A stretch of 36,771 nt of DNA from Candidatus Rokuibacteriota bacterium (lineage in GTDB: Bacteria; Methylomirabilota; Methylomirabilia; Rokubacteriales; CSP1-6): positions 1 through 36,771 of the forward strand of contig QHSA01000148.1 in the NCBI GenBank assembly GCA_003220315.1, read 5' to 3'. The notes below the pieces were generated by a model. It worked only from the letters and a program-made list of their open reading frames with translations. It had not been told where the DNA came from and did not search any database. Each line of letters starts with the position of its first letter. Position 1 is the first letter of the stretch. Positions 10,145 through 18,120 of the stretch are shown here, one piece after another. Both the position numbers and the translations under genes were made by a program.

Positions 10145-10237
10145 GCGCGTCCCGAGGCACCGCGCTGCGGCTCGACGGCGACCGTGCGACGAGTCGCGTC
10201 CTCGGCGCGTCTAAAGAAGGAGGAGACCCGTCTGCCT

Positions 10238-11041
10238 ATGAGCGCAGCAGTGACCCGGCACTATCTCGTCGCCTGTGATTTCGACCAGACCTTGAGCTTC
10301 AACGACTCCGGCAGGGTGCTGAGCGAGCTGCTCGGCGTGTCAGCCTTTGAGCACAAGGTCGCGGGGCTCGCCGAGATCCACCTCGTGCAGCAGGGCGCCG
10401 AGCTCGCCTACCTGCTCCGCCACGACCCTGAGTTCCGCCGTGTGCGTCAGGAGCATCTGGTCCAAGCGGGCCAACGGGTGCGCCTGAAGAAGGACATCAA
10501 GCACTTTGTCGAGTTCCTGGAGCGCGGCGCCGAGGGGGTCCGCTTTTCGTTCTTCGTGGTCTCCGCGGCGCCGAAAGCCGTCGTTCAGGCCGCGCTCGAG
10601 GGTGTTGTTCCCCCGGACCACATTTACGGGACGGAGTTCGACTACGACCCGTCCTCGGGCGAGATCTGCGCGATCGCGAAGGCTCCGGCCGGCTATGGCA
10701 AGGTGGCAATCGTCGAGGAGCTCGAGGCCACACTCCAGACCAGTCCGCATCGCACGATCTACGTCGGCGACGGCAACTCGGACGTCCACGTCATGCTGCG
10801 CGTCAACAACCGCGGAGGCTTCACCATCGCGGTCTCGGAGGCGAAGTACATCGCGCGGATCGCCAAACGGACGGTCGTGAGCGACAACGCGCTGAGCGTC
10901 CTGGTGCCCATCCTCGAGGACGTCATGGGCTGGGACGCCGTCCGCATCCGGGAGCTGTTCGAGTCGTACGGGCTGGTCGTCCAGGAGTGGGACAAGGCGC
11001 GCACGGACTGGGTGACCATCCGCGAGGACTCCACGGGCTGA
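10238..11041 (+). CDS. HAD-superfamily (SerB-like, subfamily IB) phosphatase
   Basis: A 267-residue haloacid-dehalogenase-fold protein. Motif I is DFDQTLS (nucleophile and general acid Asp, with the usual Thr), motif II lies in the [12 protein letters not shown] strand, a Lys follows in the middle ([11 protein letters not shown]), and motifs III/IV are [12 protein letters not shown]. This layout is that of phosphoserine-phosphatase-like enzymes of small metabolites; the substrate cannot be told. ATG 10238 begins right before the domain; a purine-rich AAGGAGGA lies 13 bases upstream, a little far but usable. An upstream in-frame ATG at 10184 adds an unlikely Arg-rich tail. Base use is slightly less GC-rich than in neighbours, so it may have a separate history. 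It may be cotranscribed behind phoU. Confidence 0.75.
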
Positions 11042-11096: not shown

Positions 11097-12152
11097 ATGT
11101 CGCTGGCCGACCCCGGGCTTGACGCGGATGCGATCGAGGAGCTCTACGCGCGCGGGGTCACCGACGGCCTGCCCGTGGTGCCGCCGACCCGTGGGCGCGT
11201 CGAGCGCACGATCGCCGCGTCGGGCCGCGGGCCCGACGAGCTGATCGGGCTCGTCCCGCCGAACTACGGCCGCGCCACCGTCGAGAAGATCGCGGTCAAC
11301 GCCGTCATGGCCGGCTGCCGGCCCGAGTATCTGCCCGTCGTGCTCGCCGCCGTGGAGGCGGTGTGCGACGACGCGTTCGATCTCCACGGCGTCTCGGCGA
11401 CGACGAACGCCCCCGCCCCGCTCGTGATCGTCAACGGCCCCCTCCGCGGCGAGCTCGACATCAACTGCGGCGCTGGCGTCTTCGGCTCCGGCTGGCGCGC
11501 CAACGCGACCATCGGACGCGCGCTCCGGCTCGTCTGCGTGAACGTCGGCGGCGCCCGGCCGGGCGAGGTCAGCATGTCCACGCTCGCTCACCCGGGCCGC
11601 TACACTTACTGCATCGGCGAGCGCGAGGAGGCGAGTCCCTGGGAGTCGCTCGCCGTCGAACACGGGTTCGCCCCGGGGGACTCGACGGTCGCCGTCCTCG
11701 CCGCCGACGCGCCCCTCGGCGTCTACGATCAGCGGTCCCGGACGCCGGAGGACCTGCTGGCGACGCTCGCGGCGAGCCTGGCCGTCGTCGCCCACCACAA
11801 GATGACGCACTGGGGGGACACGCTGCTCGTCCTCTCGCCCGAGCACGTGAGGATCCCGGGTGACGCGGGCTGGACGAAGGCCGAGGTTCGCCGCTGGCTC
11901 TGGGAGCGGCTCCAGCGCCCGGTCCGCGAGTTGCTCCCGGGCCGGGACGGGGGCGAGGGGCTCCCCGAGCACGTGCTCCGGAAATTCCCCGACCCCGCGC
12001 GCGACGACTCGCCGATCGCGAAATTCCGGTCGCCCGACAACATCAAGATCCTCGTGGCCGGTGGGACGGCGGGCCGGTTCTCGGCCATCGTCCCCGGCTG
12101 GACCTTCTCGAAGGGCTCGGCGCTCGTGTTTCGGCCCATTCGCACGCCGTAA
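11097..12152 (+). CDS. Conserved protein of unknown function, probable partner of the UGSC selenoprotein
   Basis: A 351-residue soluble protein with no signal peptide or membrane helix and no catalytic signature I can name. Distinct blocks are VTDGLPVVPPTRGRVERT near the start, GGCRPEYLP-like AGCRPEYLPVVLAAVEAV, NGPLRGELDINCGAGVFG, HPGRYTYCIGEREEASPWESL, SPEHVRIPGDAGWTKAEVR and a C-terminal VAGGTAGRFSAIVPGW. From memory, proteins with these blocks occur beside or joined to UGSC-family proteins. Here the selenoprotein gene starts 15 bases after its stop, so the two should be made together. ATG 11097 has no strong ribosome site and lies six bases after a TAGCCT that could be a -10 element, so it may be nearly leaderless. 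Function is open. Confidence 0.7.
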   Translation: MSLADPGLDADAIEELYARGVTDGLPVVPPTRGRVERTIAASGRGPDELIGLVPPNYGRATVEKIAVNAVMAGCRPEYLPVVLAAVEAVCDDAFDLHGVSATTNAPAPLVIVNGPLRGELDINCGAGVFGSGWRANATIGRALRLVCVNVGGARPGEVSMSTLAHPGRYTYCIGEREEASPWESLAVEHGFAPGDSTVAVLAADAPLGVYDQRSRTPEDLLATLAASLAVVAHHKMTHWGDTLLVLSPEHVRIPGDAGWTKAEVRRWLWERLQRPVRELLPGRDGGEGLPEHVLRKFPDPARDDSPIAKFRSPDNIKILVAGGTAGRFSAIVPGWTFSKGSALVFRPIRTP

Positions 12153-12167
12153 TCGGGAGGAAGACCC

Positions 12168-12686
12168 ATGAGCGAGTATCTGGACCCGACCGCGCCGGTC
12201 GCCGTGCCACGGAAGACCGCGCGCCGCCCGTCGAGCCTCGACGGCCTGGTCGTCACGCTGCTCGACATCTCGAAGGCGAAGGGCGACCACCTCCTCGACC
12301 GGATCGAGGAGCTCCTGCGCGAGCGCGCGCGCCCGAAGGCGATCGTGAGGAAGAAGAAGCCGACCTTTGCGCGCCCGGCGCCCGAGCCCCTGCGCGCGGA
12401 GATCGTCGGCGGGACCGGCGTCCTGATCGAGGCGCTCGCCGACTGAGGGTCGTGCACCACGTGCAGTGTGCACGACGGCGTGTTCTTCGAGGACCACGGT
12501 ATCCCGACCGCGACGGTGGTCTCGACCGAGTTCGTCCGCGCGGCCCGCGCCCAGGCCGAGGCGCTCGGAGCGCACGACTATCGGACGGTCGTCGTCCCGC
12601 ACCCGATCCAGCCGCTGACGCGTGACGAAGTGAGGGCGCTGGCCGACAAGGCGTTCGACGAGATCGTGAGGAGGCTCACGGCGTGA
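12168..12686 (+). CDS. UGSC-family selenoprotein with in-frame TGA (Sec93)
   Basis: One gene of 172 residues if TGA 12444-12446 is read as selenocysteine. The first part (VVTLLDISKAKGDHLLDRIEELL) and the Pro/Ala linker run straight into ALAD-U-GSCTTCSVHDGVFFED, then GIPTATVVSTEF and a C-terminal HPIQPLTRDEVRALADKAFDE block. The same frame stays open on both sides of the TGA to the TGA at 12684-12686. In family members that use cysteine, as I recall them, the position before GSC is Cys; the U-G-x-C-T-x-C pattern also resembles the active site of glycine-reductase-type GrdB. Redox chemistry at U93/C96/C99 is therefore likely, substrate unknown. GGGAGG lies before the ATG. A hairpin follows the TGA directly. 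Standard gene calling gives two short genes (12168-12446 and 12468-12686). The alternative is a nonsense mutation; the intact second half and the hairpin speak against it. Confidence 0.87.
12447..12476 (+). promoter_or_regulatory. Candidate bacterial SECIS hairpin
   Basis: Directly behind the in-frame TGA is a perfect 9-bp inverted repeat, GTCGTGCAC (12449-12457) with GTGCACGAC (12468-12476), enclosing 10 bases. A competing fold pairs CGTGCA (12460-12465) with TGCACG (12469-12474) around a GTG triloop whose first G is 20 bases after the TGA. Bacterial SECIS elements are hairpins at about this distance with a G at the start of a small loop, so the second fold fits the rule better while the first is longer. 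Either would be the SelB docking site within the coding sequence. Confidence 0.65.
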
Positions 12687-13582
12687 CGACCACGGACAAA
12701 CGCTGGTACCTGTTCGACGTCAATCCCTCCACGCCGCCGGCCTTCGAGGTGGCGTCGGGCGAGGCGTTCACCCTCGAGGTGCGCGGGGCATTTTCAGACA
12801 TCGCAGACATCAGCACGGTCCCGACGCCGTTCACGCCGGCGTGCGACGGCCACCCGCTCGCGCCCATCGCCGGACCCGTGCGCATTCGCGGCGCCCGGCC
12901 CGGCGACGCCGTCGTCGTCGACCTGCTCGAGATCACGCCGCACGGCGAGGGCAAGACGGCGATCCTCCGAGACTTCGGCGTGCTCCGGCGGGAGTTCGGG
13001 GAGCCGTGGGCGCTCGCGTGTCCCGTGAAGGACGGCCGCGCCTGGTTCGGCGGCCGCATCCCGATCGCGCTCAACCCGAATCTGGGAACGGTCTCCACGA
13101 TGCCGACGGAGGGCTACAAGCCCGCGTACGCCGGGCCCTACGGCGGGGACTTCGACCAGAAGGACGTGCGCGCCGGGAGCCGCGTCCACCTGCCGGTGAT
13201 GGTGGACGGCGCGCTGCTGTTCTTCGCCGACCCGCACGCCGCGATCAGCGACGGGATCATCACGGGCACGGGCGTCGAGTGCGACGCCACGGTCCGCGCC
13301 CGCGTGGAGCTCGAGAAGGGACGGAAGCTCGACCGCCCGATCCTCGAGGTGGACGACACCGTGCAGGTCCTCGGCTTCGGCCCGACGGTCGAGCTCGCCA
13401 CCGAGGACGCCGCGCGTGGCGCCGTCGAATGGTTCGTCGGGCGCACGGGCATGGACCGCCGCGAGGCGTACATGCTGCTCTCGATCGTCGGCGAGCTGCG
13501 GATCGGCACCTCGCCGCGCCCCGTCATGGCGGCGCGGCTCATCATCCCGCGGTACGTGATCGACGCCGCGGCCCGGGCGTGA
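12683..13582 (+). CDS. Acetamidase/formamidase family protein
   Basis: A 299-residue cytoplasmic enzyme of the FmdA/AmdA family. Visible blocks are the early VASGEAFTLEVRGAFSD, NPVTGPV-like PIAGPVRIRGARPGDAVVVDLLEI, NPNLGTVSTMP, GGDFDQKDVRAGSRVHLPVMVDGALLFFADPHAAISDGIITGTGVE (the family core with HAAxGDGE-like residues) and a C-terminal LLSIVGELRIG. Known members hydrolyse formamide, acetamide or related small amides to the acid and ammonia. GTG 12683 overlaps the selenoprotein stop by four bases (GTGA), which ties the two in translation. In this operon it may remove an amide made from an N-containing substrate, but that is inference. Confidence 0.85.
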   Translation: MTTTDKRWYLFDVNPSTPPAFEVASGEAFTLEVRGAFSDIADISTVPTPFTPACDGHPLAPIAGPVRIRGARPGDAVVVDLLEITPHGEGKTAILRDFGVLRREFGEPWALACPVKDGRAWFGGRIPIALNPNLGTVSTMPTEGYKPAYAGPYGGDFDQKDVRAGSRVHLPVMVDGALLFFADPHAAISDGIITGTGVECDATVRARVELEKGRKLDRPILEVDDTVQVLGFGPTVELATEDAARGAVEWFVGRTGMDRREAYMLLSIVGELRIGTSPRPVMAARLIIPRYVIDAAARA

Positions 13583-13587
13583 GCCCC

Positions 13588-14382
13588 ATGCTGGTCGGCG
13601 CCTTCGCGTGCGCGCACACGCCCCAGCTCCTGGCCCGACCCGAGACCGAGGACCGCGAGCTCGTGCTGCGCGTGCACGCCGCGTTCGCGCGGGTCAAGCG
13701 GCGGCTCGAGGCGCTCCGGCCGGACGCGATCGCCATGATCGCGGGGGACCACATCGAGGCGTTCTTCCTGAGCGCGGTGCCCGCGCTCGCCGTCTACGTG
13801 GGGACGGAGTGCGCGGGGACGTTCGGGCGCTACCGGTACCGGTTCCCGATCCACGAGCCGCTCGCCCGCGCCCTCGTCGAGGCGGGGATCGAGCGGGGGT
13901 TCGATCTCGTCTACACGCAGGACGCGCCGCTCGACTACGCCTTCTACGTGCCGCTCCACTTCACGATGCCGGAGCCGTCCGTCCCCCTCGTCCCACTCCA
14001 CGTCAACGTCTACCTGCCGCCCCAGCCGACGCCCAAGCGCTGCTACGAGTGGGGACGGGCCCTCGGCGAGATTCTGGGATCGCGCTCGGAGCGGGTGGTC
14101 CTCATGGCCTCGGGCGGCATGTCCCACTTCCCGGGGACGGACCGCTACGCGTCGCCGGAGTTCGACTACGACCGGCGGCTGCTGGACCTCTTGAGCGCGG
14201 GGCGGAGCCGAGAGCTGGCCGCGGTCACGGCCGAGGAGCTGGACCGTGCCGGCAACATCGAGCTGCGGACGTGGATCACGTTGCTCGGCGCGGTCGGCGA
14301 CGCGAAGGCCGACGTCTACTGCTACGAGCCGTCGTGGCATCACGGCAACGCGGTCGTGGAGTGGCCGCTAGCAGTAACCTAG
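13588..14382 (+). CDS. LigB-type class III extradiol ring-cleavage dioxygenase, catalytic subunit
   Basis: A 264-residue LigB-superfamily catalytic subunit. The likely non-haem Fe(II) ligands are His10 (FACAHTP), His55 (AGDHIEAFF) and Glu225 (GNIELRTW), and His180 (SGGMSHFPG) is the likely acid/base, matching the arrangement known for LigB. It should insert O2 next to a phenolic hydroxyl and open an aromatic ring; whether the substrate is a protocatechuate, gallate or aminophenol type cannot be read from the sequence. ATG 13588 gives the usual start (MLVGAFACAHTPQLL); GTG 13579, overlapping the previous stop, is the alternative. The LigA-type subunit begins directly after its stop, which makes a two-subunit enzyme very likely. 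Confidence 0.85.
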   Translation: MLVGAFACAHTPQLLARPETEDRELVLRVHAAFARVKRRLEALRPDAIAMIAGDHIEAFFLSAVPALAVYVGTECAGTFGRYRYRFPIHEPLARALVEAGIERGFDLVYTQDAPLDYAFYVPLHFTMPEPSVPLVPLHVNVYLPPQPTPKRCYEWGRALGEILGSRSERVVLMASGGMSHFPGTDRYASPEFDYDRRLLDLLSAGRSRELAAVTAEELDRAGNIELRTWITLLGAVGDAKADVYCYEPSWHHGNAVVEWPLAVT

Positions 14383-14652
14383 ATGGTCCACTACCGGTTC
14401 CCGCCCGCCTCGGCCTATCGCCTGAACCGCTGCCTCTTCGCGCTGAAGTCGGACGACGCGTTTCGCTCGCGGTTCCGGGCGGACGCGCGCGCGGCGATGC
14501 GCGAGATGGGGCTCGACGACGCGGATGCGGCGGCGCTCCTCCGCGGCGAGCGCGACGCGCTCGTCGCGCGGGGCGCGCATCCCTACCTCGTCTTCATGGC
14601 GGACCTCAGGCTCCGGATGGAGCGGGAGGCGGTGACGTTCGAGTACTTCTAG
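14383..14652 (+). CDS. LigA-type small subunit of extradiol dioxygenase
   Basis: An 89-residue helical protein like the LigA (alpha) subunit of protocatechuate 4,5-dioxygenase. Typical features are SAYRLNRCLFALKSDDAFRSRF near the start, a Met-Gly-Leu turn (MREMGLDDADAAALLRGE) and a closing GAHPYLVFMADLRLRME. In LigAB enzymes this subunit caps the active site of the catalytic subunit. The ATG follows the LigB-type stop with no gap, so the two proteins are probably made in equal amounts. No catalytic residues are expected in it. Confidence 0.82.
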   Translation: MVHYRFPPASAYRLNRCLFALKSDDAFRSRFRADARAAMREMGLDDADAAALLRGERDALVARGAHPYLVFMADLRLRMEREAVTFEYF

Positions 14653-14689: not shown

Positions 14690-15637
14690 GTGGCGACGAC
14701 CCTGACCGAGAGCGACGTGGTCAAGATGATCTCGAGCCTCAGCAACTGGGGCCGCTGGGGGCAGGACGACGAGCTGGGGACGATCAACCTCATCACGCCG
14801 GAGAAGCGGAAGCGCGCGGCGGCGCTCGTGAAGGACGGCGTCCCGGTGAGCTGCGCGCGGCCGATCGCGACCAACGCGATCGGCGCCGACACGACGTTCC
14901 AACCCCTGCGCTTCATGGTCGACTCGGGCGAGGGGCGCGATCACGACTCGCCCGCGCGACTCCTGGAGCGGCGCGGCGCCTCCGAGTTCATCGGCATGGT
15001 CTTCCACGGCTACACGATCACCCACGTCGACACGCCGGCGCACTATTTCTGGCAGGGGAAGATCTACAACGGGCGCTCGGCCAACCTGATCACCTCGCGC
15101 GAGGGCGCGCGCGTCGAGTCGGTGGACCTGCTGCGCGACGGCGTCGTGAGCCGTGGCGTGCTCCTCGACGTCGCGGCGCTCCGGGGACGCTGGCTCGGGT
15201 CGGGCGAGGGCGTGATGCCGGAGGACCTCGAGGCCGCGGAGCGGGCGCAGAACCTTCGCGTCGAGGCGGGCGACATTCTGCTGATCCGGACCGGGTACTA
15301 CGCGCGGCGGCTCGCCGAGGGACCGCGCCATCCCCTGAAGGACGGCTCGCCTGCGACGCACGTCGCGTGCATGCCGTGGCTCCGCGAGCGTGACGTCGCC
15401 ATGCTCGGCAGCGACACCCACAACGACGTGAGTCCCGCCACCCATCCCGGTCTCGGCAACGTCGTGCACATCGTCGGGCTCGTCGGTCTGGGGCTCTGGC
15501 TCATCGACAACGCCAACCTCGAGGAGCTGGCGAAGGCGTGCGCGGCGCGGCGACGGTGGGAGTTCATGCTGACGATCGCGCCGCTCAGGCTCGAGGGCGT
15601 GACCGGCTCGCCCGTGAACCCGATCGCGCTCTTCTGA
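14690..15637 (+). CDS. Cyclase-family protein (kynurenine formamidase-like hydrolase)
   Basis: A 315-residue member of the cyclase/kynurenine-formamidase fold. It has NWGRWGQDDELGTINLITPEKR near the start (very typical of the long subgroup), the metal-binding HGYTITHVDTPAHYFW block (variant of H-x-GTH-x-D-x-P-x-H), GDILLIRTGYY and a SDTHNDVSP block. Members hydrolyse amides or lactones by a metal-bound water; the exact substrate is unknown. GTG 14690 is preceded by AGGAGGA at a good distance. It is 37 bases behind the LigA-type gene and is the last gene of the plus-strand run, so it may act on the ring-cleavage product. Confidence 0.85.
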   Translation: MATTLTESDVVKMISSLSNWGRWGQDDELGTINLITPEKRKRAAALVKDGVPVSCARPIATNAIGADTTFQPLRFMVDSGEGRDHDSPARLLERRGASEFIGMVFHGYTITHVDTPAHYFWQGKIYNGRSANLITSREGARVESVDLLRDGVVSRGVLLDVAALRGRWLGSGEGVMPEDLEAAERAQNLRVEAGDILLIRTGYYARRLAEGPRHPLKDGSPATHVACMPWLRERDVAMLGSDTHNDVSPATHPGLGNVVHIVGLVGLGLWLIDNANLEELAKACAARRRWEFMLTIAPLRLEGVTGSPVNPIALF

Positions 15638-15699: not shown

Positions 15700-16704
15700 C
15701 TAGGAGAACTTCGGCAGCACCTTCGTGCCGAGGAGACGGATCGAGCGCAGCACTTGTTCCTGGCCCATGCCGGGCCACTGCAGGCGGAAGATCAGCGTCG
15801 TCACGCCCAGCCGATCGCGGTAGCGGGCGATCTCGTCCGCGACCCGGGCCGGGTCGCCGATCAGGAAGCGGTCGCGCGCCAGCTCCGCGAAGCTCGCGTC
15901 GAAGCTCTCGCCGGCCGGGAGCGCCTTGTCCTGCTCCCAGCGGCGGTACGCGCGGTACTTGGCGTCGAGGAACGCCGCGGCTTCCGCGAGCGCCGTGGAC
16001 GACTCCGGCGCGACATAGCACTCCTTGATGAGCGGCGTCTCGGTCGCCGCGGGGCGACGGAGCTCGGCTCGCGTCCGCCTGAAGAGGGCGAGCTGACGCT
16101 CGAGCGTCGGGAGCGTGGCGTGGGGGTTCATCAGCCAGGTGTCCCCGAGGCGCGCCGCGCGCCGGACGCCGGCGTCGGCGTTCGCCGCGAGCCAGACGGG
16201 TGGGCGCGGCTGCTGCAGCGGGCGCATCGAAATCCGCACCTCCCGCAGGCGGAAGTGCGTGCCGTGGTAGGTGACGGGCTCGCCGTTCCACAGCCGCTCG
16301 ATCACCTCGAGGCCCTCCACCAGGCGGCCGACACGCTCCTTCGGATTCAGGCCCATCGCCTCGTTCTCGACGTCGCGATAGCCGAGGCCGACGCCGAAGA
16401 CGAAGCGCCCCGCCGTGATCACGTCGAGCGTCGCGAGCTGCTCGGCGATCTCGACGGGATGGTGGAGCGGCAGGAGCAGGCACCCCGTCCCGAGCGTCAT
16501 GCCGGGGGCCTCGGCGGCGACGCGGGCGAGCGTCGGGATCGGCTGGAAGTAGGTGAACGGGTCGGAGAGATAGTGCTGGCTCGCCCAGACCGAGGTGAAC
16601 CCCACGGCACGCGCGAGCCGGACCTGCTCGACGTGCTCCTGGAAGCGGGCCGCTTGCGAGTCCTCCGGCAGGTGCTGGACCGAGAGCCCGATGCCGAACT
16701 TCAT
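15700..16704 (-). CDS. LLM class flavin-dependent oxidoreductase
   Basis: A 334-residue TIM-barrel flavoenzyme of the bacterial luciferase-like family. The start MKFGIGLSVQHLPEDS, the VGFTSVWASQHYLSDPFTYFQPIPTLARVAAE block, GTGCLLLPLHHPVEIAEQLATLDVITAGRF and FGVGLGYRDVENEAMGL are the classical barrel strands and cofactor contacts of this family. Such enzymes use reduced FMN or F420 to oxidise diverse substrates, often in catabolism. It lies 27 bases downstream of the VWA gene on the same strand, so it shares that transcript. The substrate cannot be inferred; nearness to the LigAB operon (converging, separate transcript) hints at a role in the same catabolism but does not show it. Confidence 0.88.
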   Translation of the reverse strand: MKFGIGLSVQHLPEDSQAARFQEHVEQVRLARAVGFTSVWASQHYLSDPFTYFQPIPTLARVAAEAPGMTLGTGCLLLPLHHPVEIAEQLATLDVITAGRFVFGVGLGYRDVENEAMGLNPKERVGRLVEGLEVIERLWNGEPVTYHGTHFRLREVRISMRPLQQPRPPVWLAANADAGVRRAARLGDTWLMNPHATLPTLERQLALFRRTRAELRRPAATETPLIKECYVAPESSTALAEAAAFLDAKYRAYRRWEQDKALPAGESFDASFAELARDRFLIGDPARVADEIARYRDRLGVTTLIFRLQWPGMGQEQVLRSIRLLGTKVLPKFS

Positions 16705-16731: not shown

Positions 16732-18120
16732 TCAGGCGAGCCCACGAACGAAGTCGCCGAGCTGGCGAAGGTTGCGGACCTCGAAGACACCGTCGCAGTA
16801 GGGCGCGTACGCGGCGACGATCGAGTCCGTCGTGTTCCACTCCCGCCGTCGCTCCGGATTCAACCAGTACACCCGGCGCGCGCGTTCCTTGATCGCGCGA
16901 AGGGCGTCGAGCCCCGGGCGGCGGTAGTTGTTGCGCGCATCGCCGGTCACGAGGACCGTGGTCCGCGGTCCCAGGGCGCCGCGTCCGTAGACGTCCCAGA
17001 ACGTGCCGAACACGCTCCCGTAGTCGCTGTGGCCGTCCGCCCGCACGACGCTGGCGCGCGCCAGGAGGTGGCGGACGTCCAGGCGGTGCGCGCTCTCCTC
17101 GAGCAGCGCGGTCACCTCGTCGATCCCGTCGACGAACGCGAAGGACCGGATTCGCGGGAACTCGTCGCTCATCGCGTAGAGGAGCGACAGGGTGAACTGG
17201 GCGAATTCCGCGACCGAGCCGGAGACATCGCACAGCAGATAGAGATCCGGCTTGGACACTCGCGGATACCTGAAGGCGGGCTCGAGCGGCACGCCGCCAG
17301 CGGACAGCGAGCGGCGGATGGTCCGGCGCGCGTCGAGCCGGCCGTGCCGGCGGAGGCGGCGCCGGTGCGCGACCCGGGCGGCGAGCTTCCGTGCGAGCGG
17401 TCGGATCGCATTCCGCATCTCCCGGAGCTCGGTCGGGCTGGCGCCGAGGAAGTCGACGTCCTCGATCGGCGGCTCGGCGGCGGCGAATCCCTTGAGCTCG
17501 AGCAGGCGGTGGCGGATCTCGTCGGCGATCAACCGGCGGAACGCCTCGATGCGGTGGCGGTGCTCGTCCTGAAGCAGGCGGTCGCCGAGGCGCCGCGCGT
17601 CGGCGCCTGTCCCGCCCCCGTCGCGCATGGCCCGTTGCATGAGGTTGGACAGGTCGAGCTGCCGGAGGACCCGGTAGAGGTAGTACTGCACGGATCCGTC
17701 TCGCTGGACGTCGAGCCCCCCGAACCGCTGGACGGCCAGCGCGGCGATCGCCCGCAAGGCGCCCGCGTCGTTTCGTCGCAGCGCTTCGAGGAGAGCCGCG
17801 AGCAGATCCTCCGAGCCGCCTTCGCCGACGGCGGCCTCGGTGAGGTCGGCGGGGAGCGGGGGGGACAGCGTCGCAGGCGCGCCGGCCGGCCGGGACACCT
17901 CGGCTCGGCGCGGGACGAAGGAGATGTCGAACAGGGCCGCGAAGGGCGCGCGATGCTCCGCCCGCTTCACGAGCACGGCCGCCAGAGCCGCCTTGAGCTC
18001 GGCGCGGCTCCCCAGGTCGATGTGTCGAAGCGCGTGCGCAGCGTCGAGCGCCTCGACCATCGAGATCGGAATCGCCGCGTTTCGCAGACGATGGATGAAC
18101 TCGATCAAGGCGGTCAGCAT
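16732..18120 (-). CDS. VWA domain-containing CoxE-like protein (second copy)
   Basis: A 462-residue protein with the same plan as the one at 405-1814: a helical N-terminus (MLTALIEFIHRLRNAAIPISMVEALDAAHAL), a variable Ala/Pro-rich middle, the RRTIRRSLSAGGVPLEPAF block and a VWA domain with the MIDAS DVSGS starting at residue 298 and VLVTGDARNNYRRPGLDAL later. The usual MoxR ATPase partner is not next to it; the nearest full-length one is at 25437-26309 on the other strand. ATG 18118-18120 is the first start of the conserved N-terminus. A promoter-like pair (TTGGCC, 17 bases, TAGACT) lies just upstream. Confidence 0.87.
   Translation of the reverse strand: MLTALIEFIHRLRNAAIPISMVEALDAAHALRHIDLGSRAELKAALAAVLVKRAEHRAPFAALFDISFVPRRAEVSRPAGAPATLSPPLPADLTEAAVGEGGSEDLLAALLEALRRNDAGALRAIAALAVQRFGGLDVQRDGSVQYYLYRVLRQLDLSNLMQRAMRDGGGTGADARRLGDRLLQDEHRHRIEAFRRLIADEIRHRLLELKGFAAAEPPIEDVDFLGASPTELREMRNAIRPLARKLAARVAHRRRLRRHGRLDARRTIRRSLSAGGVPLEPAFRYPRVSKPDLYLLCDVSGSVAEFAQFTLSLLYAMSDEFPRIRSFAFVDGIDEVTALLEESAHRLDVRHLLARASVVRADGHSDYGSVFGTFWDVYGRGALGPRTTVLVTGDARNNYRRPGLDALRAIKERARRVYWLNPERRREWNTTDSIVAAYAPYCDGVFEVRNLRQLGDFVRGLA

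Follow-up and report, generated by a model that had tools for sequence, protein, structure and literature searches.

A UGSC-family selenoprotein of Rokubacteria with a conserved partner and a probable kinship to the selenocysteine domain of GrdB and PrdB

A readthrough frame with full-length matches to the UGSC family

We asked whether two short open reading frames parted by an in-frame TGA in a Candidatus Rokuibacteriota contig are a single selenoprotein gene, as a first-pass annotation had proposed, and what such a protein might do. The locus lies in a 36,771-nucleotide stretch of DNA (contig QHSA01000148.1, assembly GCA_003220315.1), called the window here. On the forward strand, a frame (12168–12686) opens with ATG at 12168, meets a single internal TGA at 12444–12446 and closes at a TGA stop at 12684–12686. 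Readthrough gives 172 residues, with residue 93 falling at the internal TGA within ...IEALAD-U-GSCTTCSVHDGVFFEDHG..., where the site residues ...ALAD-U-GSCTTCSVHDG... carry the motif U-x-x-C-x-x-C (UGSCTTC). The joined protein, searched against databases as that annotation had advised, matched Pfam PF24696 (UGSC; E 2.7e-50, 171.3 bits against a cut-off of 25, residues 4–171) and NCBIfam NF041046 (‘UGSC family (seleno)protein’; 159.3 bits against a cut-off of 125); both curated cut-offs are exceeded and the match covers the whole length, bearing out the reading of the frames before and after TGA 12444 as the same frame and one protein. C/U93, G94, S95 and C96 of the U/C-G-S-C motif are invariant in 35 aligned sequences, and the third cysteine of UxxCxxC is absent from many UGSC paralogues.

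An intact readthrough frame, far beyond chance, is confirmed, and because both profiles are matched over their full length we place 12168–12686, judged by its sequence, as one selenoprotein of a described family: an ordinary UGSC member and not a new kind. The first-pass picture of a selenoprotein hidden as two short genes holds for plain open-reading-frame calling but not for the family, which had already been catalogued in metagenome selenoproteomes (PMC2398784), in a review (PMC13188914) and as NF041046. The protein shares with the family (PF24696/NF041046) the full-length profile match, the UGSC motif and the exchange of Sec and Cys at that motif; nothing within it differs, and what sets it apart is its setting, with multiple copies per Rokubacteria genome and an aromatic-catabolism neighbourhood. 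The four-base overlap described earlier is also there, between the UGSC stop and the GTG start of the next gene at 12683.

Decoding of the internal UGA

We aligned homologues at the TGA column, a check that the first-pass annotation had called for, and the alignment crosses the TGA with Sec or Cys in the column. Among 40 loci retrieved by homology, nearly all from Rokubacteria, TGA occupies the homologous codon in 38 of the 38 that contain the stretch. A single in-frame TGA also interrupts each of the other three UGSC genes of this genome, again at this codon, and 72 of 95 phylum genomes have the family, with TGA in all matches listed. Among homologues from annotated plasmids, the Cys-type genes of four haloarchaea, Roseovarius, Arthrobacter, Variovorax and Embleya use TGC or TGT at this column, and Acidovorax sp. 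T1 uses TGA; across 35 sequences the residue is Sec or Cys, never Trp. A second proposed check, for selenocysteine genes in the same genome, recovered the full machinery expected of a bacterial selenoprotein: selA (581 bits), selB (365 bits) and a tRNA-Sec with anticodon UCA (69.8 bits; ARAGORN calls the same tRNA) are grouped on contig C281; selD (337.5 bits) is on contig C231. This selD (G000:C231:16606-17541, L122) itself has one in-frame TGA and probably encodes a selenoprotein. Under strict filters, tRNA-Sec occurs in 61 of 72 UGSC-positive and 18 of 23 UGSC-negative genomes of the phylum, and its presence does not discriminate for UGSC at that level. Constraint is no weaker after the TGA (dN/dS 0.12–0.20) than before it (0.19–0.28) in nine orthologue pairs, and GC3 stays high (0.97 before, 0.92 after), in line with the normal codon use that had been noted for the downstream half.

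Covariation and local folding reveal a bacterial SECIS-like hairpin on the forward strand at 12460–12474, 19 nt after the TGA, with a 6-bp stem (12460–12465 with 12469–12474) and the loop GUG (12466–12468). The position of the stem-loop is constant in 68 distinct downstream sequences, and the loop, covered by 67 of them, is GUG in 59, GUU in 7 and GGG in 1; the sequences are related, hence these counts are not independent events. Over 22 distinct 33-mers, 90.3% of cells are paired and four pairs show changes in both partners. The covariation score of 0.221 compares with a mean of 0.053 after shuffling and is reached by 0 of 500 shuffles; the signal is lost when the register is slid by 1–3 nt, and no slid register comes close. 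Some of the covariation can be traced to residues that differ between groups of paralogues, but not that at the codon following the loop (Val, Leu, Phe or Ala): its third base is G in 62 of 62 sequences with partner C, and C in 5 of 5 with partner G. Of 68 sequences, 67 use AGT for the loop serine, a codon that accounts for 2.9% of the serine codons counted over 16 genes of the window (GC3 0.92).

Published bSECIS criteria ask for a loop of 3–9 nt with G in the first two positions, a stem of 4–16 bp, a distance of 16–37 nt from the UGA and an MFE of at most −7.5 kcal/mol (PMC13188914); the window hairpin lies within the limits for loop, stem and spacing, and its 17-nt core folds at −7.4 kcal/mol, slightly above the energy limit. 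A 30-nt segment folds at −16.1 kcal/mol in an alternative pairing, a longer stem that is more stable in the window than the conserved short one. We rejected this longer stem as the functional hairpin, as it is broken in several orthologues, and retained the conserved short one; because the longer stem competes, folding 50 nt of the window as a single sequence gives unconvincing z-scores. Near the TGA, Rfam yielded no SECIS match and a single weak one, to a microRNA family, that is attributable to chance; the hairpin was therefore assessed by how well it is conserved.

Together, the conserved TGA, the Cys homologues, the selenocysteine machinery and the RNA hairpin argue that UGA 12444 is almost certainly read as Sec, upholding the earlier interpretation. 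That TGA 12444 is instead a true stop, leaving two truncated proteins or a pseudogene, would agree with the standard code and with a GTG at 12468 that could restart translation in frame, but is negligibly probable given the 38 of 38 loci with TGA against TGC or TGT in Cys-type homologues, the purifying selection after the TGA, the complete machinery and the SECIS-like covariation. Recoding to another residue, by tryptophan reassignment or a natural suppressor, draws on nothing beyond readthrough itself and is just as improbable, since TGA stops terminate neighbours such as 12683–13582, the column is never Trp and the genome has a tRNA-Sec whose anticodon is UCA.

Predicted fold and probable kinship with GrdB and PrdB

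We modelled the UGSC protein with AlphaFold2 from 33 aligned sequences (pLDDT 93.7). Strands and helices strictly alternate in the model, five of each, with Sec93 between strand 3 and helix 3; the predicted fold is Rossmann-like, not thioredoxin-like, and the model lacks the order of a thioredoxin fold. A thioredoxin-like fold and a redox function had been proposed for UGSC by Zhang and Gladyshev in 2008 (PMC2398784), and the Rossmann-like model argues against that guess at the fold. With the thioredoxin-like selenoproteins (Trx-like, Prx-like, AhpD-like) UGSC shares the UxxC motif and a likely redox use, but it differs from them in its modelled five alternating strands and helices. A sequence search of solved structures with UGSC gave no match, and Foldseek with the model gave generic alpha/beta matches only (TM mostly 0.3–0.55).

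The first-pass annotation had also remarked on a resemblance to the GrdB active site, which profile–profile comparison extends to probable homology. PF07355 matches end just before the Sec codon of GrdB, which left an initial UGSC–GrdB comparison empty, and we restored the Sec region in a comparison set of GrdF, GrdH and PrdB from annotated plasmids and Rokubacteria GrdB carrying its own TGA at Sec. Aligned with these GrdB/PrdB Sec domains in hhalign, the UGSC alignment scores 96% (P 2.3e-9) with the Sec columns in register; the value is 94.9% with the Sec column alone masked and 85.5% with the whole motif masked in both, and the best of 60 column shuffles reaches 1.4%. On this profile evidence, UGSC is very probably homologous to the Sec-bearing C-terminal domain of GrdB/PrdB. 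This copy also shares the UxxCxxC spacing of GrdB, whereas UGSC has no GrdB N-terminal domain and another partner; a Pfam scan of the UGSC protein reports PF24696 as the sole family, with no PF07355 match. Searches of its own genome for GrdB (PF07355), GrdA (PF04723) and GrdE (PF09338) gave no match; the same GrdA search finds GrdA in six relatives, and the PF09338 search ran without a positive control. As the genome yields no GrdA, GrdB or GrdE match, UGSC is not a standard glycine reductase part. Several Rokubacteria relatives (L105–L116) have a full GrdB with an in-frame TGA at Sec and adjoining GrdE-like genes, and also have GrdA selenoproteins; their GrdB genes resemble normal reading-frame ends, as PF07355 stops just before Sec. 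Among the accessible papers, which cover little of the subscription literature, none that names both UGSC and GrdB was seen to link the two; relative to these papers, the proposed link of UGSC to the GrdB/PrdB Sec domain and the Rossmann-like model are new.

A conserved partner and multiple copies

Directly upstream on the forward strand lies a conserved gene (11097–12152) for a 351-residue protein that matches no Pfam family and is modelled by AlphaFold2 with pLDDT 84.6. A homologue of about 350 residues adjoins UGSC in 77 of 83 loci, spanning Rokubacteria, Hydrogenedentota, Proteobacteria, Actinomycetota and haloarchaea. Three of the six loci that lack it are on short contigs (L091 holds a partial partner at the edge), and the other three (L030, L055, L078) have no partner despite flanking sequence being present. 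Two of the four UGSC copies in this genome share one frame with the partner, and such fusions also occur in two relatives and in Acidovorax. On this linkage and fusion, the two proteins probably form a complex. Profile comparison found no similarity of the partner to GrdE or to the GrdB N-terminal domain, a sequence search of solved structures gave no match, and a comparison with viral structures was likewise empty. A 2008 paper (PMC2398784) had already described UGSC fused to an unnamed domain, which may be the same as this partner; relative to the accessible papers, the unnamed protein of about 350 residues beside UGSC, fused to it in two of four copies, is new.

All four UGSC copies of this genome carry the TGA; the other three lie at L092 7801–8313 and 9928–11499 and at L093 6731–8386 (contigs G000:C231 and C248). 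Rokubacteria have up to 12 UGSC copies per genome, which is likewise new relative to the accessible papers. On C231, fused and unfused UGSC–partner modules stand side by side, an arrangement whose match positions suggest recurrence in many relatives. The Acidovorax sp. T1 plasmid p2-T1, a conjugative IncP plasmid, carries a Sec-type UGSC–partner fusion (L099 5977–8472) that is annotated merely as a 96-aa hypothetical protein and whose C-terminal end appears to enter an IS91-type transposase fragment. Plasmids of Halorientalis and Halalkalicoccus (L101, L103) each have a single Cys-type UGSC gene flanked on either side by a different partner gene. Arthrobacter sp. ERGS1:01 (L098 5974–6786) has a Cys-type UGSC longer than others, with trxA and trxB directly upstream; a NifU-like match (4.3e-6) in one alignment member probably belongs to its C-terminal extension.

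Genomic setting

Downstream of UGSC on the forward strand follow genes for an acetamidase/formamidase-like protein (12683–13582; PF03069, E 5.1e-21), which stands beside UGSC in several orthologous loci, the LigB-type (13588–14382; PF02900, E 2e-37) and LigA-type (14383–14652; PF07746, E 2e-8) subunits of a ring-opening dioxygenase, and a putative cyclase family protein (14690–15637; PF04199, E 5.1e-18). The order amidase-like, LigB, LigA, cyclase is kept in several orthologous loci, and LigB in many. Upstream of the partner, a HAD-type phosphatase gene (10184–11041, forward strand; PF12710, E 7.7e-14) is kept in one orthologous locus only (L022). Two reverse-strand genes separate the UGSC cluster from genes further downstream, for PnpD of hydroquinone dioxygenase and for a branched-chain-type ABC importer, which therefore probably belong to another unit. 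The window also holds two CoxE-like VWA-domain proteins (96–1814, forward; 16732–18120, reverse), the second adjoining a luciferase-like monooxygenase (15700–16704, reverse). Cys-type copies have CoA-transferases, TRAP transporters and PEP-mutase-like enzymes as neighbours; trxB lies near three of them, joined by trxA in Arthrobacter, and no thioredoxin gene was seen in Rokubacteria UGSC loci.

A proposed reductase and its alternatives

The best overall explanation, which we hold with somewhat better than even confidence, is that the UGSC selenoprotein and its partner make up a GrdB/PrdB-like reductase in a catabolic cluster. SelB and Sec-tRNA would decode UGA 12444 as Sec, guided by the hairpin 19 nt downstream, to give a protein of one Rossmann-like domain in which helix 3 begins at Sec. 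Together with the product of the adjacent upstream gene, to which it is fused in some paralogues, this domain would form the reductase. By analogy with GrdB/PrdB, the selenolate would attack a substrate held by the partner; an Se–S bond closed by nearby cysteines would then be reduced by thioredoxin and thioredoxin reductase. The pair may serve the cluster for catabolism of aromatic or cyclic compounds (LigAB, cyclase, amidase-like). From the catabolic neighbours, and from trxB and trxA near Cys-type copies, we infer a thioredoxin-recharged reductase acting on a partner-bound substrate. Family membership, the conserved TGA, the Sec machinery, the hairpin, the GrdB homology and the linkage and fusion of the partner are computational results; reductase activity, partner role, electron donor and substrate class are inferences. 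The chemistry is the weakest step: by analogy, GrdB-like reductive chemistry is about an even call, and it is doubtful that the substrate is an intermediate of this particular cluster.

Less likely, a UGSC selenoprotein could act as a generic thiol-disulphide or peroxide oxidoreductase in redox maintenance and not as a GrdB/PrdB-like substrate reductase. The 2008 proposal favours such a role, and the trx genes near some Cys-type copies are compatible with either reading; however, the model has a Rossmann-like order, the homology points to GrdB/PrdB, and UGSC is tied to a conserved partner in catabolic clusters. It is improbable that UGSC supplies the selenolate subunit of a lyase, hydratase or other non-redox enzyme with the partner as catalytic core. 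The partner has many invariant polar residues, and its model weakly matches class I fumarate hydratases in Foldseek (E 5.8e-5), but a TM of about 0.3 and an rmsd of about 16 Å make that match unreliable, and no solved structure matches the partner in sequence; we rejected a fumarate hydratase identity as too weak.

In this ordinary member of a known family, three points stand out: the link to GrdB/PrdB, the partner, and the number of copies in Rokubacteria. Plain open-reading-frame calling at stop codons splits several such genes per Rokubacteria genome. Grouping the UGSC Sec domain with that of GrdB/PrdB, and identifying a partner that at times belongs to the same chain, yields a specific, testable idea: that the pair carries out reductive cleavage of a catabolic intermediate. 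Tentatively, and at slightly less than even confidence, UGSC and its partner may add a third class, itself widespread, to the GrdB/PrdB-type selenoenzymes: a reductase of two subunits, or of one fused chain, serving catabolic clusters in bacteria and, in a Cys form, in haloarchaea, which would be independent of GrdA and of a pyruvoyl subunit and would have expanded to up to 12 copies in Rokubacteria for different substrates.
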